A stretch of 64,000 bases of DNA. Source: Rhodohalobacter sp. SW132 (GTDB lineage: Bacteria > Bacteroidota > Rhodothermia > Balneolales > Balneolaceae). A program made the translations under genes and the position numbers. This document shows positions 3,502-10,108 of this stretch, piece by piece. The notes under the pieces are model-generated. The model was not told the origin of the DNA. It worked only from the letters and a program-made list of their open reading frames with translations, and made no database searches. The stretch spans positions 62,001 through 126,000 of the forward strand of contig NZ_QUOK01000002.1 of the NCBI RefSeq assembly GCF_003390325.1. Direction: 5' to 3'. How positions within the stretch are numbered: the stretch's first letter is position 1; every line of letters starts with the position of its first letter.

Positions 3502-3556
3502 GTTTTTGATTTGAGAATAATAAACTGCTCTGATAAGTAGTATAACGGTCTTGGGC

Positions 3557-3925
3557 TTAAGTAGCCGGTTCTGGCTCTTGGATTAAAACTTCAGCTGGGA
3601 TACCAAGCTTTCGGTACAAGATTTTAATTTGACGTAGAGAAAGTGATCGTTTACCAGATAGAATTTCGCTCGCCCGTGATTTCGAACCTAAAATTTTTGC
3701 CAAATCTTTCTGCTCCATACCAAGTTGGTCCATTCTAAACTTAATCGCTTCAACCGGCTTTGGTGCTTCAATGGGGAAGTGCTTTTTTTCGTATTCATCC
3801 ACTAAAATTCCCAATATTTCCAATTCGTCACCTTCTATACTTCCAGGCTTGGCATCAAAAATTTCTTCGATACGATCTAATGCGTTTTGATAATCGTCTT
3901 CGGTATGTATGGGTTGAATCTGCAT
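3557..3925 (-). CDS. higA: HigA-type antitoxin with C-terminal Xre helix-turn-helix
   Basis: Likely the antitoxin of a type II HigB/HigA pair; it should bind the toxin and repress the shared promoter. Residues about 1-55 form an acidic helical region (IHTEDDYQNALDRIEEIF), and residues about 60-115 are an Xre-type helix-turn-helix (MDQLGMEQKDLAKILGSKSR, then LSGKRSLSLRQIKILYRKLG). The toxin gene lies directly upstream with a 14-bp gap, the toxin-first order usual for higBA. The 122-residue length fits the family. Confidence 0.9.
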   Translation of the reverse strand: MQIQPIHTEDDYQNALDRIEEIFDAKPGSIEGDELEILGILVDEYEKKHFPIEAPKPVEAIKFRMDQLGMEQKDLAKILGSKSRASEILSGKRSLSLRQIKILYRKLGIPAEVLIQEPEPAT

Positions 3926-3939
3926 AATAAATATCTGCT

Positions 3940-4233
3940 TTAAATTGTCGTTGCATCAATTTTATCGTATTCGGCATGAGTACCAATAAAACGGATGAAT
4001 ACCTGTCCATAGTCGTAATTAATTTTGACTACTAACCGATAGGTATTGCCCTTAATATTGAAAACCACTCGATTATCAGGAAGAATACTGGCGTGTGGAT
4101 AATTATTCTTGATAACTGAAGGTGTTTCCCATTGGGAATTTTTTGCTTCAGAAAACCACGCTTTTAAAGCATCTTCACTATCCGAATGATTGTTCCAAAA
4201 CTCACGTAATGTTTTTCGGGCAAATACTCGCAT
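3940..4233 (-). CDS. higB: HigB-type mRNA interferase toxin
   Basis: A RelE-superfamily toxin of the HigB group, expected to cleave mRNA at the ribosome. The 97-residue protein has the family pattern: an N-terminal helix (KTLREFWNNHSDSEDALKAWFSEA), then W.TPS.IK.NYPHASIL, then the strand region RVVFNIKGNTYRLVVKINYD and the closing FIGTHAEYDKIDATTI. That last segment matches the conserved GTHAEYDKI end of HigB toxins. It is the first gene of the pair with the antitoxin at 3557-3925. Confidence 0.93.
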   Translation of the reverse strand: MRVFARKTLREFWNNHSDSEDALKAWFSEAKNSQWETPSVIKNNYPHASILPDNRVVFNIKGNTYRLVVKINYDYGQVFIRFIGTHAEYDKIDATTI

Positions 4234-4308: not shown

Positions 4309-4653
4309 TTATTGGTTAGATTCGATGATCTCTTCTACTTTTGTTTTGAGATCCAAAATATCTTCTGTTGCCACAACCCAAACCATTTCAAGGGTGATAC
4401 CAAAATATTCATGAATGATGACATCCCTCATACCGGCAATTTGGCGCCAGGGGATATCGGGATGAGTTTCTCGAATTTCTTCAGGCAGGTGCTTTACGGC
4501 TTCCCCGATAATTTCCAATCTCCGAAGTACAGCATCCTGTTTCTCTACATTTTCATAAAATTCATCTTCCGAAACACCATCAAGAAATCTCTGGATATGT
4601 TCAATGCTCTGTACTATATCCTGAAGATAGACATCTGGCTTTCTTTTGCTCAT
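4309..4653 (-). CDS. hepT: HepT-like HEPN toxin (DUF86)
   Basis: HEPN-domain ribonuclease-type toxin of a type VII HepT/MntA pair. In this family the partner MntA inactivates HepT by adding AMP to a Tyr next to the active site. The HEPN catalytic pattern R-x4-H with a following Tyr is visible as RDVIIHEY near residues 88-95. Helices before it (IEHIQRFLDGVSEDEFYENV) fit the DUF86 fold. Its start overlaps the end of the mntA gene by 4 bp, so the two are translationally coupled, with mntA first. Length (114 residues) is normal. Confidence 0.9.
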   Translation of the reverse strand: MSKRKPDVYLQDIVQSIEHIQRFLDGVSEDEFYENVEKQDAVLRRLEIIGEAVKHLPEEIRETHPDIPWRQIAGMRDVIIHEYFGITLEMVWVVATEDILDLKTKVEEIIESNQ

Positions 4654-4931
4654 AGCACAGGTTCTTCATCCCTGAGGATATCCTCTTTCAAGGCTGGCTT
4701 GATGGCTTCATATTCCACAAGATCAACCTTCATGCCTAATTTGTCTTCCAGTTCCTGTTGAATCCCGATAAATTCCAACAGACTGATCTTTTTATCGATT
4801 TTAACAAGCAGGTCAAGATCATTCACCACAGATTCACCTCGCGCAGAAGACCCGAATATTCCGGCTTTTTTGATGCCGTACTTTTTAAGGATCGGTCTGA
4901 TTTCCTTTTTTATGTCGTCGAGGTTATTCAT
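4650..4931 (-). CDS. mntA: MntA-type minimal nucleotidyltransferase antitoxin
   Basis: A minimal nucleotidyltransferase acting as antitoxin to HepT. The diagnostic motif GS-x10-D-x-D is seen as GSSARGESVVNDLDLLV (residues about 27-43), with a third acidic residue in MKVDLVEYEA. The 93-residue length is normal. It is the first gene of the pair and overlaps hepT by 4 bp. The pair sits back to back with higBA on the same strand. Repeat copy A begins 85 bp upstream of its start codon. Confidence 0.9.
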   Translation of the reverse strand: MNNLDDIKKEIRPILKKYGIKKAGIFGSSARGESVVNDLDLLVKIDKKISLLEFIGIQQELEDKLGMKVDLVEYEAIKPALKEDILRDEEPVL

Positions 4932-5016
4932 GATTTTGATCTGTAGTTACAAAGACTAATATAACAAAAGATAAATGAATTTAGCTTATAGCATGATCAC
5001 CGTGTTAAATGCCATT

Positions 5017-5263
5017 AACATTTAATTCCTCGACAGTTCTCACGCCGCATACTCCATCGCAGAATATTCGATTTGATTGTTATTCGTAAATACGGACTAT
5101 GACCGGGCATATTCCCCGACTACTAAAAAGCGGGGAGTGTCGCGGAACAATAAAAAAGTGGTGGAGCGGGGTTAAATGCATTCGTTGTTTTCAGATGGAG
5201 AAATTAAAAACCCGAATTACTCCGTTCCGGTTAGAGAGAAACATAATTCTGTGCAGGATTAGT
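5017..5263 (+). repeat. Interspersed repeat, copy A (gene-free 4932-5494)
   Basis: The first 75 nt (5017-5091) match 7754-7828 at 74 of 75 positions. Beyond that, similarity continues more weakly to about 5263, including GTTAAATGCATTCGT and ATGGAGAAATT blocks shared with copy B. A hairpin CCCCG (5114-5118) with CGGGG (5131-5135) encloses an A-rich loop; in copy B the stem is CTCG with CGAG, a paired change. A short plus-strand frame around 5161-5235 (GVKCIRCFQMEKLK) is shared with copy B but is not a convincing gene. The rest of 4932-5494 is AT-rich with no gene seen. Confidence 0.75.
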
Positions 5264-5494
5264 TACTGCCAAAAGATCAATGTGGTATTTTAAACTTCGA
5301 TATATACAAAACTTAAAAAGTATTGTATAACAGTCTTTATCCTGACTATTTGCATTTTCCATTTGTGAAATAAATTTCACGAAACTCACAACAAGTCAAA
5401 CGTTCAGCATCTGAATAATTGCACAATATATGAAGAGCATCTTCAAACTGTGCTCCTGTACAAAACACATAATATTTAAATAGATCGAACAGCT

Positions 5495-6091
5495 ATGATT
5501 CAACGAATATTAGTAATATTGACAGTAATTATAAGTACGGCTGTTTTTACAGCCAGTGCACAATCTGCAGCAGATCGCGCAGGAATCTCCAATACGTTGG
5601 GATTTGGACCACGACTCGGTTACTACAGTGCCCAGGATGCTGATCAGGGAAGTTTCTATTACGGTATTCAGGCGAGATTCCGGCCGGGAGCTATCGTTGG
5701 AATAGAGGCAGCCATAGAGTACAGACCCGGACAGGAGTTCGGGTTTGGTGACAGCACGGTGGAGACAAGTTTTGTGCCCGTAACGCTCTCACTGCTTCTG
5801 TTTGCACCTGTAAGCGAGTACTTTGCACCTTATGGGGTGGCGGGGCTTGGCGCTTACTTTACCAAGTACAGTCCATCAGATGTACTTGAAGATCTCGGCT
5901 TCGAAAGCGATAGTGATTTCAATCTTGGATATCATATAGGGTTTGGTGCGGAGGTACCGTTTAGCGGTAACATCGCCTTAAGCATTGACTATCGCTACAT
6001 TTTCCTAAATCCGGACGAAAATGAGGAGTCATTCGAAGGCGCCAATTTCAATGGTAATACCATCTCGGCCAGCCTGATGTTTTATTTTTAA
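5495..6091 (+). CDS. Outer-membrane beta-barrel protein, porin-like
   Basis: A 198-residue exported protein. It has a signal peptide ending ASAQ at residue 23. Alternating hydrophobic strands follow, such as YYGIQARFRPGAIVGIEAAIEYRPG, PVTLSLLLFAP and IALSIDYRYIFLNP, and the chain ends in an aromatic residue (SLMFYF), the usual barrel signature. The size suggests an 8-stranded barrel of the OmpW/OmpA-like or general porin-family type. Function is unknown. It stands alone between repeat copy A and a MITE-like element. Confidence 0.8.
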   Translation: MIQRILVILTVIISTAVFTASAQSAADRAGISNTLGFGPRLGYYSAQDADQGSFYYGIQARFRPGAIVGIEAAIEYRPGQEFGFGDSTVETSFVPVTLSLLLFAPVSEYFAPYGVAGLGAYFTKYSPSDVLEDLGFESDSDFNLGYHIGFGAEVPFSGNIALSIDYRYIFLNPDENEESFEGANFNGNTISASLMFYF

Positions 6092-6116
6092 TTCATAAGT
6101 GGTCTGATTCCGGGGC

Positions 6117-6269
6117 TGTCCAAAAAGAGTGTCATCCCGCACCTGATGCGCTCATTTTTTAACCCGAAGCGAGTTCTCCTGTCCCAAATACAGGCAGGAG
6201 ATGACGGATCGGAGTCCGGTATGACGGAATTGATGAATGAATGTTCAGTTTTCACGCTCTTTTTGGACA
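6117..6269. mobile_element. MITE-like element, 153 bp, with 16-bp terminal inverted repeats
   Basis: The ends TGTCCAAAAAGAGTGT (6117-6132) and ACGCTCTTTTTGGACA (6254-6269) are inverted repeats with one mismatch in 16. Inside are a second inverted pair GTCATCCCG / CGGTATGAC and a small hairpin CTCCTG / CAGGAG. There is no room for a transposase, so this looks like a non-autonomous element that would need a transposase from elsewhere. A clear target-site duplication was not found. An 80-codon open frame crossing it is not a gene. Confidence 0.65.
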
Positions 6270-6287
6270 CCTCAAAAGATAGAAGTC

Positions 6288-6335
6288 CCCCATTGAAGGG
6301 GAAACGATCCCGAAAGCGTTTGGGAGGAGTGATTG
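6288..6335 (-). repeat. Degenerate relative of the composite GC-rich repeat
   Basis: The segment has GTCCCCCATTGAAGGGG, then AAACGATCCCGAAAGCG, then GGGAGGAGTGAT, in the block order of the composite repeats at 1-116 and 31511-31653 but eroded. It lies in the gap between the MITE-like element and the sigma-factor gene. Confidence 0.4.
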
Positions 6336-6526
6336 ACAACTTGAATACCTACACATACACCGAGGCGCTATTCAAATGTTTTAACTAATAAAAGTGATGA
6401 CTGATTATATAGAATCCTGATCTGTATGATGTGGTATCTGCACTCATTTTAAGAAGTTCTGTATTAATCTATTTTCACTTCACAGTCTCACATAAACAGC
6501 AACTAAGAATTCTTAAGGTATTTAAT

Positions 6527-7135
6527 ATGAACGGTGCAACAGCAGCAGAGCTTCGCAATATGAATGATGAAGATGTTATGGAACAGCTTCAGGTCGGTGT
6601 AATGCAAGCCTTTGACATTATCGTTCACAGATATAAAGATAGACTCCATTATTTTCTACACCGATATACTCACAATCATGAAGATTCTGAAGATCTTGTT
6701 CAGGAAACATTTTTAAGAGTATATCGAAGCCGTAATTCTTATCAGCGGATTGCAAAGCTCTCTACATGGATTTATACCATTGCATTGAATCTCGCAAGGA
6801 GCATGTATAAAAAGAAGCAGCGAATGAGCTTTATTTCCATTCATGCTGATGAATCAGATCCTGATGACCGGAAAATGGAGATTACAGATACTAATATTCT
6901 TCAGGATGATAAACTTCATTTTAAAAATTGCATGATAGAACTTGAAAAAGCTTTATCGGAACTGAATGATGATTTCAAAGAAGTAATTATTTTAAGAGAT
7001 GTACAGCAATTAACCTATGAAGAGATCTCCGTAATTACGGGGGCAGTAATGGGTACCGTTAAATCGAGAATTTATCGCGCCAGGAATCAACTTTGTGATT
7101 TAATCGGAGATTTTGTTGAGCTTCCTATGAATTAA
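6527..7135 (+). CDS. RNA polymerase sigma-70 factor, ECF subfamily
   Basis: An alternative sigma factor that directs RNA polymerase to a stress or surface regulon. Region 2 is seen around FDIIVHRYKDRLHYFLHRYT, with the core-binding and -10-reading part DSEDLVQETFLRVYR and LSTWIYTIALNLARS. Region 4 carries the -35 helix-turn-helix: LNDDFKEVIILRDVQQLTYE and VMGTVKSRIYRARNQL. The Met at 6527 is chosen over an upstream frame-opening Met because AAGG lies 8 nt before it and the 32 upstream residues are not sigma-like. No anti-sigma gene follows, which is unusual for ECF factors; the downstream 600 bp carry no gene. Confidence 0.92.
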   Translation: MNGATAAELRNMNDEDVMEQLQVGVMQAFDIIVHRYKDRLHYFLHRYTHNHEDSEDLVQETFLRVYRSRNSYQRIAKLSTWIYTIALNLARSMYKKKQRMSFISIHADESDPDDRKMEITDTNILQDDKLHFKNCMIELEKALSELNDDFKEVIILRDVQQLTYEEISVITGAVMGTVKSRIYRARNQLCDLIGDFVELPMN

Positions 7136-7753
7136 TATAAACTTAGCATTTGCATCGGTATAGTGTCTTTTCATAATTCTTAATACAGGGTCTTTATCCC
7201 TTATCTGAGATAACCTTACAGGTGATCAACTACACTTCATTTTATTAAACCCATTTTATGTGAAGATTATTTTCGAAATCATGTATGACTAACTCAAACT
7301 TGCTCCGGACAACCGCTGGATTCAGATGGGAACTCTGCTCGTGTGAGACTGAATGATTAGACCTGGATCTCATTAACGCTGTTTGGCCTTAACAACTCCG
7401 CCTTAGCTGCTCCAAAATCCCGCTTGCGTTCATGTGCTGTTACCAGCAGTGTTTCTTTTTTTGCTCATATTTTTCATACAATAGTACTTTGTCATTTTAT
7501 TGTTTTGACTGCGGTTAAAACATTCAACTCTACATAAACAAGTGTAATTATAATTGCTACTTCTAAGGAAAAATAAGTCAACCCAAAAGATACTCTGCAG
7601 GTTTCATTTCTTTTTCCACAACCTTACCATAAACTTCGTCATAGATTTTTCAGCACAGTTTTTAACTGCACCCTTACAATCCTCAATAGCTTCTATTATG
7701 GCATTTTCAAATTCTGAGAAATTCAATTTTCGAACTCATTCATTAGTGTGCCT
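7136..7753. other. Gene-free stretch after the sigma-factor gene
   Basis: No gene can be supported. A 90-codon plus-strand frame at 7554-7826 runs into repeat copy B and has no protein-like features. A block at 7388-7440 (TTAACAACTCCGCCTTAGC and following) recalls an integron attC arm, but no matching second arm is present. Confidence 0.5.
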
Positions 7754-8010
7754 AACATTTAATTCCGCGACAGTTCTCACGCCGCATACTCCATCGCAGA
7801 ATATTCGATTTGATTGTTATTCGTAAATGTGTGCTATTACCGGTCATAGTACTCGACTCCAAAAAAGCGAGGAGTGTAACGAAACCATAAAAAAGACATG
7901 GATGAGATTTGGTGTGGCGTTAAATGCATTCGTGGTTTTCAAATGGAGAAATTGAAACAGCGAATAACTCCGTTCTGCTTTAAGAGAAGCGGTGATTCTG
8001 TGCTGAATAA
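7754..8010 (+). repeat. Interspersed repeat, copy B
   Basis: Positions 7754-7828 match copy A at 74 of 75 nt, with a sharp left boundary at AACATTTAATTCC. Similarity then declines but continues through GTTAAATGCATTCGT and ATGGAGAAATTGAAA up to about 8010. The hairpin stem CTCG (7852-7855) / CGAG (7868-7871) replaces CCCCG/CGGGG of copy A, so pairing is kept. The shared short frame reads GVKCIRGFQMEKLKQRITPF here. Of the six codons that differ from copy A within it, four differ silently, which hints at descent from coding DNA. Confidence 0.75.
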
Positions 8011-8100
8011 ATTGCTGTCTGCGCTATCGGTAATGGTAAACTTTGTTGGCCAGTCTGTTATAGGCGTATCTTCACTAACGGTTCACACCCATTTCTGAGA

Positions 8101-8538
8101 CTACTTGGGAGCGTTTGATTTCTCTTGTTTGTCCAGCAATTTGATAAATAATGACATAGAGCTTTTGAATGTAAAGTAGTATTTGGCTGAATAGAGCGTA
8201 AACAGAAAAAATGCCAGTAAGAGTGATAATCCAAAAGTAAGGCTGAACCAGTTTGGATCTGCGCCATAACCAATGAATGCAACAATTGTAAAGTACGCGA
8301 ATGTAATTATTCCAATTGCAGCAGCCCATATAAAATACCTTGTTTCAGTGATCAGTTTCTGAGCAAACTCACGAAACTCCCCATTTTTTAACAACTGTTT
8401 GTCTTTATACGAAAGTAGTAAGTAAGAGGTATTCTTAAACTGATCTGCAAAAAACTCTTCAATTGTTTCCTGAGTTATCAGTGAAGTGTTAGATGAATTA
8501 TCATTTTGAAGCATCTCATATAGTTTTATGATGGTCAT
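8101..8538 (-). CDS. Small two-span membrane protein, unrecognised
   Basis: I do not recognise this 145-residue protein. It has a hydrophilic N-terminal half (about residues 1-65, with helical segments such as TQETIEEFFADQF), two hydrophobic spans at about 69-91 (YFIWAAAIGIITFAYFTIVA) and 98-120 (SLTFGLSLLLAFFLFTLYSA), and a basic C-terminal tail ending KQEKSNAPK. No signal peptide is seen. The gene is squeezed between repeat copy B on its 3' side and copy C on its 5' side, with copy C starting within a few bases of its start codon. The function is unknown. Confidence 0.6.
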   Translation of the reverse strand: MTIIKLYEMLQNDNSSNTSLITQETIEEFFADQFKNTSYLLLSYKDKQLLKNGEFREFAQKLITETRYFIWAAAIGIITFAYFTIVAFIGYGADPNWFSLTFGLSLLLAFFLFTLYSAKYYFTFKSSMSLFIKLLDKQEKSNAPK

Positions 8539-8542
8539 TTCA

Positions 8543-8720
8543 GACAGTATCTTCCACAGAATATTTCATTTCTCTATTATTCGCAAATGCCGGATATACC
8601 GGACATATTCCATGACTTCTAAAAATCGGGATGTGTCACGGAGCAAAAAGAATAGGATAGATCGGGTATTTAATTCGGAGTTTATGTTTACAATACGGGT
8701 GTTCTCTTACGGCCATGAAA
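8543..8720 (+). repeat. Interspersed repeat, diverged copy C
   Basis: A more eroded member of the A/B family. It shares CAGAATATT, TTATTCG.AAATGC, GGACATATTCC and TCTAAAAA.CGGGA.GTGTC with copy A in the same order, up to about 8650. Beyond that the match fades. A 93-codon plus-strand frame at 8528-8809 runs through it; its sequence is not protein-like and I do not call it a gene. Confidence 0.55.
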
Positions 8721-9223: not shown

Positions 9224-10108
9224 ATGAATAAAAATAAATTGATCAATTCTCCGATAGGGATTGATCGCTCCGGATGGAAGAAAGTTTTAAAGAGGGTTAT
9301 GGAACGTATTGTTGAGGATAATATACCTATCGTATCAGCCGGTGTTGCGTTTTATGCGTTTCTGGCAATCTTCCCCGGTATTATGGCCCTGTTTTCTATT
9401 TATGGATTAGCGACAGACGCTCAGTCGGCCCAGGAACAAATCACAAGGCTGGCAGAAGTGATGCCCGAGGAAGCTATTTCATTAATCGAGGGAAGAGTGA
9501 ATAATTTAATGGAGACCTCAGCTACTGCGCTTGGCTGGGGAACCCTGTTTGGGATCCTGATTGCTCTATGGAGTGCCAATCGGGGGATTAAATCTCTGTT
9601 TACCGGACTTGATATTGCCTACAGTGTAGAAAACGGCAGAGGCTTTATTAAACAATATGCCGTGACCCTGGCTTTTACGCTGGCAACCATTGTTGTGATC
9701 ATCGTGAGCCTGGCATTTATTGTACTGTTTCCTGTTTTGGTTAATACGATTGGATTTCCAGAGACGGTTGGAAGCCTTATAACCTGGCTCAGGTGGCCTG
9801 TGCTGGCTATCATTGTCATTACGGCTATTAGTTTAATCTATCAACACGGACCGTCACGGGAAACTCCGGGATTTCAATGGGTGGTTCTTGGTGCTACAAT
9901 GTCAACCATCGTATGGCTGATAGCTTCCTGGGGATTTTCCGTCTACGTTAGTAATTTCGGAAACTATGGTGAAATGTATGGATCGTTATCAGCGGTAGTG
10001 ATTCTGTTATTCTGGCTGTTTATTACCAGTTTCATCATTCTCTTGGGAGGAGAACTAAACCGCGCAACTGAAGCGTATGCTAATAACCGGCTTGAACCCT
10101 CTGATTAA
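9224..10108 (+). CDS. YihY/BrkB-family inner-membrane protein
   Basis: A 294-residue integral membrane protein of the YihY (formerly called RNase BN) family; the molecular function of the family is not settled. Six hydrophobic spans are seen, at about residues 42-64, 104-125, 145-170, 185-205, 215-240 and 250-275. Family phrases include IPIVSAGVAFYAFLAIFPG, GTLFGILIALWSANRGIKSL and LFWLFITSFIILLGGELNRA. The final segment GELNRATEAY is typical of the family end. It is monocistronic with a possible leader hairpin upstream. Confidence 0.92.
   Translation: MNKNKLINSPIGIDRSGWKKVLKRVMERIVEDNIPIVSAGVAFYAFLAIFPGIMALFSIYGLATDAQSAQEQITRLAEVMPEEAISLIEGRVNNLMETSATALGWGTLFGILIALWSANRGIKSLFTGLDIAYSVENGRGFIKQYAVTLAFTLATIVVIIVSLAFIVLFPVLVNTIGFPETVGSLITWLRWPVLAIIVITAISLIYQHGPSRETPGFQWVVLGATMSTIVWLIASWGFSVYVSNFGNYGEMYGSLSAVVILLFWLFITSFIILLGGELNRATEAYANNRLEPSD

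Follow-up and report, generated by a model that had tools for sequence, protein, structure and literature searches.

The three copies (A, B and C) of an interspersed repeat in the window, the 64-kb stretch of contig G000:C2 analysed here, are best read as attI sites of a Balneolaceae integron lineage that stand without a neighbouring integrase gene, some of them probably ending attI-type cassettes. We consider this reading probable, if well short of certain. Given their promoter-like sequence, their distance from any integrase gene and, for two of them (A and C), the small cassette-like gene immediately behind, the sites appear to be either relics or atypical carriers of captured genes. attI sites vary from one integron lineage to another, and defining them is difficult unless several can be compared; the comparison here yields a clear site family with a predicted promoter at a fixed position and many copies that lack an integrase.

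A preliminary description had proposed an unrecognised family of three copies, with A and C directly upstream of minus-strand genes. The interspersed repeat, its sharp boundary near minus-strand genes and the position of A and C were all borne out, and the kind of element proved to be a known one, the attI of a Balneolaceae integron lineage. The copies, their flanks and the genes around them are as follows.

3557-3925, minus strand: HTH antitoxin, paired with HigB (Pfam PF01381)
3940-4233, minus strand: HigB toxin, the next toxin–antitoxin pair (Pfam PF09907)
4309-4653, minus strand: HepT-like RNase, toxin–antitoxin pair with MNT (Pfam PF01934)
4650-4931, minus strand: MNT nucleotidyltransferase, behind A (Pfam PF18765/PF01909)
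5013..5158, minus strand: copy A, complete solo attI from arm 1 to the GTTAATG core (102.6 bits with model R2)
5162..5268, minus strand: 5' flank of A, common to B only (79% over 108 nt)
7576..7745, minus strand: relict short reading frame behind B, with frameshift and stops (no open reading frame found)
7750..7895, minus strand: copy B, complete solo attI (core GTTAGGC at 7750-7756)
7910..8017, minus strand: 5' flank of B, common to A only (79% over 108 nt)
8101..8538, minus strand: 145-aa membrane protein gene, between C and B (homologue between sites in the other genus)
8534..8654, minus strand: copy C, solo attI whose 3' end is missing (no arm 4, no GTTA), fused to the beginning of the 145-aa gene

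A profile built without window sequences recovered all three copies (A, 3.5e-25; B, 1.4e-19; C, 2.5e-12), so that C is a real but more divergent copy. Read on the minus strand, the unit common to all copies is ~146 nt long; the 247 nt first proposed do not hold for every copy, and the further ~108 nt are found in A and B only, with no match in the other loci compared. As originally reported, A and B agree at 74 of 75 nt in the block that ends at GTTA, with identity decaying farther out (91/100, then 127/147). The match breaks off at GTTA, which is followed by ATG in A and by GGC in B. The source genome (G000, 5.1 Mb) holds a fourth copy (D, G000:C7:151917-152061) and a fifth (G000:C3:188278-188420), and a genome of the same genus (G003) carries copies E and F. 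As 75-nt near-identical direct repeats, A and B could possibly recombine and delete the barrel and sigma genes between them, as had been suggested, and may perhaps be integrase substrates too.

By sequence comparison, the solo sites are homologous over almost their full length to sites that relatives carry between intI and the first cassette, the position by which attI is recognised here. A profile trained only on six sites adjoining intI or intI remnants, all from related Balneolaceae, had just three matches in the window, namely A (6.2e-21), B (2.4e-17) and C (8.9e-8). In the reverse direction, model R2, built from 11 sites that include none next to an intact intI (L121 adjoins an intI remnant of 23 aa), matched the intI-adjacent sites of four genomes (G031, 27 bits; G120, 94; G107, 93; G123, 47), and the intI match starts 72-78 nt upstream of the site in all four. 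From the first six copies, a model based on sequence alone led to sites in a second genus, one of them directly 5' of intI (G031:C35). When the intI loci of other genera were searched with the first model, R1, nothing matched; homology at the sequence level therefore does not reach beyond the two genera, even though the layout is found again. These models were built on few sequences, and most of the genomes are drafts in which arrays are often cut by contig ends.

An integron integrase match at E 1e-60 or better was present in 50 of 97 related genomes. The source genome encodes an intact integron integrase at G000:C15:1-1889 (L034; 433 bits to TIGR02249), on a contig that stops inside the integron array and has an attC match at its end. 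The attI at this locus is of another subtype (TTGCAC-N17-TACTAT...GTTAAGG); the intI-adjacent attI regions of G000 and G003, both of this different subtype, have the same layout as the full sites of the repeat family, with TTGCAC or TTGCAA-N17-TACTAT about 47 nt before GTTA. Because its own attI is of this other sequence subtype, the G000 integrase may not recognise A–D. The regions upstream of intI in relatives of G000 have a common layout, with inverted arms ending near GTTA, which could help to define attI sites in Balneolaceae.

Within full sites, the order toward the boundary is arm 1, arm 2, −35/−10, arm 3, arm 4 and ATGTTA. The elements located in the window copies are these.

5013..5019, minus strand: core of A, GTTAATG, with the expected integrase crossover at G/TTA (GTTA invariant in 31 sites)
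5024..5037, minus strand: arm 4 of A, CTGTCGAGGAATTA (alignments A3 and A7)
5061..5066, minus strand: −10 of A, TATTCT, 47 nt before GTTA
5084..5089, minus strand: −35 of A, TTACGA, 17-nt spacer (TTGnnn in most relatives)
5138..5147, minus strand: arm 1 of A, TTCCGCGACA (alignments A3 and A7)
7798..7803, minus strand: −10 of B, TATTCT (−35 TTACGA at 7821-7826)
8558..8563, minus strand: −10 of C, TATTCT (−35 TTGCGA at 8581-8586, 17-nt spacer; alignment A5)

Comparison of the copies revealed that complete sites end at a GTTA boundary, with a promoter-like pair at a fixed distance before it and cassette-like genes after it. Across 31 sites, each GTTA base carries 2.0 bits of information, and the next five bases 0.38 bit or less; the family has a GTTRRRY-type ending at which conservation stops. 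GTTA is kept in A, where GTTAATG deviates from RRRY, and in B (GTTAGGC), and is lost in C. Most full copies contain a sigma70-like pattern (TTnnnn-N17-TAnnnT) with its −10 46-48 nt before GTTA, a spacing to which several divergent sites do not conform. C and D have TTGCGA-N17-TATTCT; in A and B the G of the −35 TTG is lost, giving TTACGA. The pair is a candidate cassette promoter (Pc) that would drive MNT–HepT behind A and the 145-aa gene behind C.

Four inverted arms are a conserved feature of full copies. Arm 2 reads GTCGnGGAATA, arm 3 overlaps the −10 (in D it is TATTCTGCGACA) and arm 4 in full sites is TGTCGnGGAATTA. Because the arms are alike within one attI and differ between species, we read them as putative integrase-binding half-sites and not as RNA structure. 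By some measures, but not by all, the arms paired moderately more than shuffled controls did. In one short site (L118 845-904, on G031 C111), arm 2 is joined straight to the end of arm 4 (TGTCGTGGAATTATATGTTA) and the promoter is removed, as if two similar arms had recombined.

GTTRRRY-like cores followed by short genes, and an arm 1 able to pair with arm 4, would also suit attC sites of an unusual long type. We regard this explanation as very unlikely. Relatives' arrays contain ~100 canonical attC-like sites that end in ...GGGtCGTTA, and model R3, built from 29 of the canonical sites of relatives, detects attCs at related loci, with ten matches in G000, and reported none at or beside A–C. The endings differ as well: relatives' attCs close with ...GGGTCGTTA, and the A–C type with AATTATATGTTA, as in the sites beside intI. 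Together with the homology to intI-adjacent sites, this refutes an attC ancestry. A candidate attC with R'' at ATTTAAC, or with L''/L' at TTCCGCGAC/GTCGCGGAA, was dropped because R3 was negative and the intI-adjacent sites matched. Given that the attC model is blind to these attI-type sites, attC-only searches would miss such loci.

Interspersed repeats with inverted arms and without coding capacity might also have nothing to do with integrons and represent a MITE, a piece of an insertion sequence or a structured RNA. The preliminary description had pointed to a compensatory hairpin (CCCCG/CGGGG in one copy, CTCG/CGAG in another), but the stem is broken in C and D, and in a six-copy alignment 60% of cells pair, a level that shuffled columns equal (166/500). 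The RNA fold of six copies gave a weak consensus, and no Rfam 15 model matched up to E 1. A coding origin fared no better: in the stop-free plus-strand frame, 3 of 9 differing codons are synonymous, not four of six as claimed, and a minus-strand frame has 5 of 11, which leaves no clear coding signal. That frame also falls outside the shared ~146-nt unit. With above-threshold matches confined to two genera of one family of bacteria, a fixed place beside intI in four genomes and a 3' boundary that is the integrase core, an origin unconnected with integrons is extremely improbable.

The relatives' sites have intI in cis; A–C do not. By tblastn, with the 5' flanks included, no intI or remnant was found beside A–C, for which reason we term them solo attI copies and not the active attI of an integron. 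Of the 46 sites examined, in two genera, 39 show no intI match in an upstream stretch of 400 nt or more. Above-threshold matches were restricted to these two genera of one family. The exact core pattern occurred among GTDB genomes in five Balneolaceae records (four MAGs and Rhodohalobacter halophilus) and in one MAG labelled Chitinophagaceae. It was absent from viral contigs, and plasmid records held no match to the repeat. We found no papers on Balneolaceae integrons with the search terms used.

Many sites have a short gene within 100 nt downstream, often a toxin or an antitoxin, and the genes behind them are of cassette-like types (MNT–HepT, MazEF and RelBE). In G031 these genes look like MazEF, FitA-like and ParD/RelE-like, as judged by eye; the Pfam check covered the window pairs. 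A relative of HepT is present in the integron array of a relative. Copy E (G003, L035 4108-4620) is joined inside a mazF-like gene and lacks the site end; homologues of this gene, 87-88% identical, lie in intI-linked arrays of relatives, and an attC-like stretch follows it (R3 E 0.16). On G031 C111, four sites lie within 5.5 kb among toxin–antitoxin genes, together with one canonical attC.

The 145-aa membrane protein gene has a homologue in G107, in the other genus, that is 83% identical and likewise lies between two such sites, the downstream one being fused to its stop codon. For the neighbouring window gene (9224-10108), comparison with seven genomes gave a single match, from within the genus and 63% identical. 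An identity of 83% across genera against 63% within the genus suggests, on this single comparison, that the 145-aa gene was transferred together with its sites. Gene order would fit, but does not establish, a unit of gene plus attI at the 145-aa gene and B, at the G107 fusion and at the four sites after toxin–antitoxin genes on G031 C111.

Such arrangements bear on whether the sites are only the heads of former integrons from which intI was deleted, their tandem copies having arisen by ordinary duplication or rearrangement and none having been cassette-borne. Several loci would fit such a history: the sites in G022 and G123 adjoin internally deleted intI genes (the last ~20 residues are kept in G022 and residues 260-316 in G123), the G022 C3 site is followed by cassettes and canonical attCs, and behind both F (G003) and the G000 C3 site comes a gene with a canonical attC after it. 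Upstream of most sites, however, no remains of intI or of its promoter region are seen, and neither the four sites packed between toxin–antitoxin genes on G031 C111 nor a 145-aa gene flanked on both sides by sites in two genera is readily explained by this history. We regard it as possible but unlikely as the sole explanation.

In the attI-type-cassette reading that we prefer, the most likely route would begin with a gene in which attI had taken the place of the 3' attC. Integrase-mediated recombination at GTTA could then have produced the tandem copies, and the array may have decayed after cassette recombination; alternatively, tandem sites could go back to integron heads that decayed after the loss of intI. 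We rate the attI-type-cassette history as about twice as likely as the lost-intI-head history. It is doubtful, and we raise it tentatively, that complete promoter-bearing attI sites routinely serve as cassette-borne recombination sites in these chromosomal integrons. If they did, each cassette would supply a promoter for whatever lands behind it, and genes deep in an array, or relocated to another place in the chromosome, would stay expressed without dependence on the promoter at the array head.

A Pc near attI and a GTTRRRY core are textbook integron features (PMC8191803, PMC8876359). Like attIA of the Vibrio cholerae chromosomal integron, attI1 and attI2, the relatives' site lies beside intI and has a GTTRRRY-type core end; as with known attI and Pc, cassettes lie downstream and the promoter, here a predicted one, reads into them (PMC8191803, PMC8876359). 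Unlike known attI sites, most Balneolaceae copies are without intI, and they carry the promoter-like pair inside the site, ~47 nt before the core, together with four inverted arms. Extra direct repeats bound by IntI1 are present in attI1 and absent from most attI sites (PMC8191803/PMC8876359).

Cassettes that end in a partial or complete attI, and that recombine, have so far been described for class 1 and 2 mobile integrons, where IntI1 excises and inserts these attI-type cassettes; their role in chromosomal integrons was only supposed by the authors (PMC12901181). The arrangement proposed here would be similar in that a gene is followed by attI, or part of it, in place of attC (PMC12901181). 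In mobile integrons it is mostly 14-18 nt of attI and rarely a complete site, in resistance integrons, whereas the Balneolaceae sites are nearly complete with a predicted promoter, are chromosomal and lie mostly before toxin–antitoxin genes or genes of unknown function. CALINs, clusters of attC without an integrase, are likewise cassette remnants far from intI, often with toxin–antitoxin genes (PMC7923331), but they are defined by attC clusters, whereas the window copies are of attI type with no attC detected beside A–C. If the sites moved as attI-type cassettes, what has been demonstrated for mobile resistance integrons would apply to chromosomal ones too, and cassettes would gain a promoter of their own.

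Two further stretches of the window deserve mention. Right after the HigA stop, at 3536-3555 on the minus strand, lies CTTAAGCCCAAGACCGTTATAC, which resembles the 3' half of a canonical attC and was not reported by the attC model. Between the barrel and sigma genes, at 6111-6270, inverted ends (GTCCAAAAAGAGTG/CGCTCTTTTTGGAC) surround ~130 nt, possibly a small mobile repeat.
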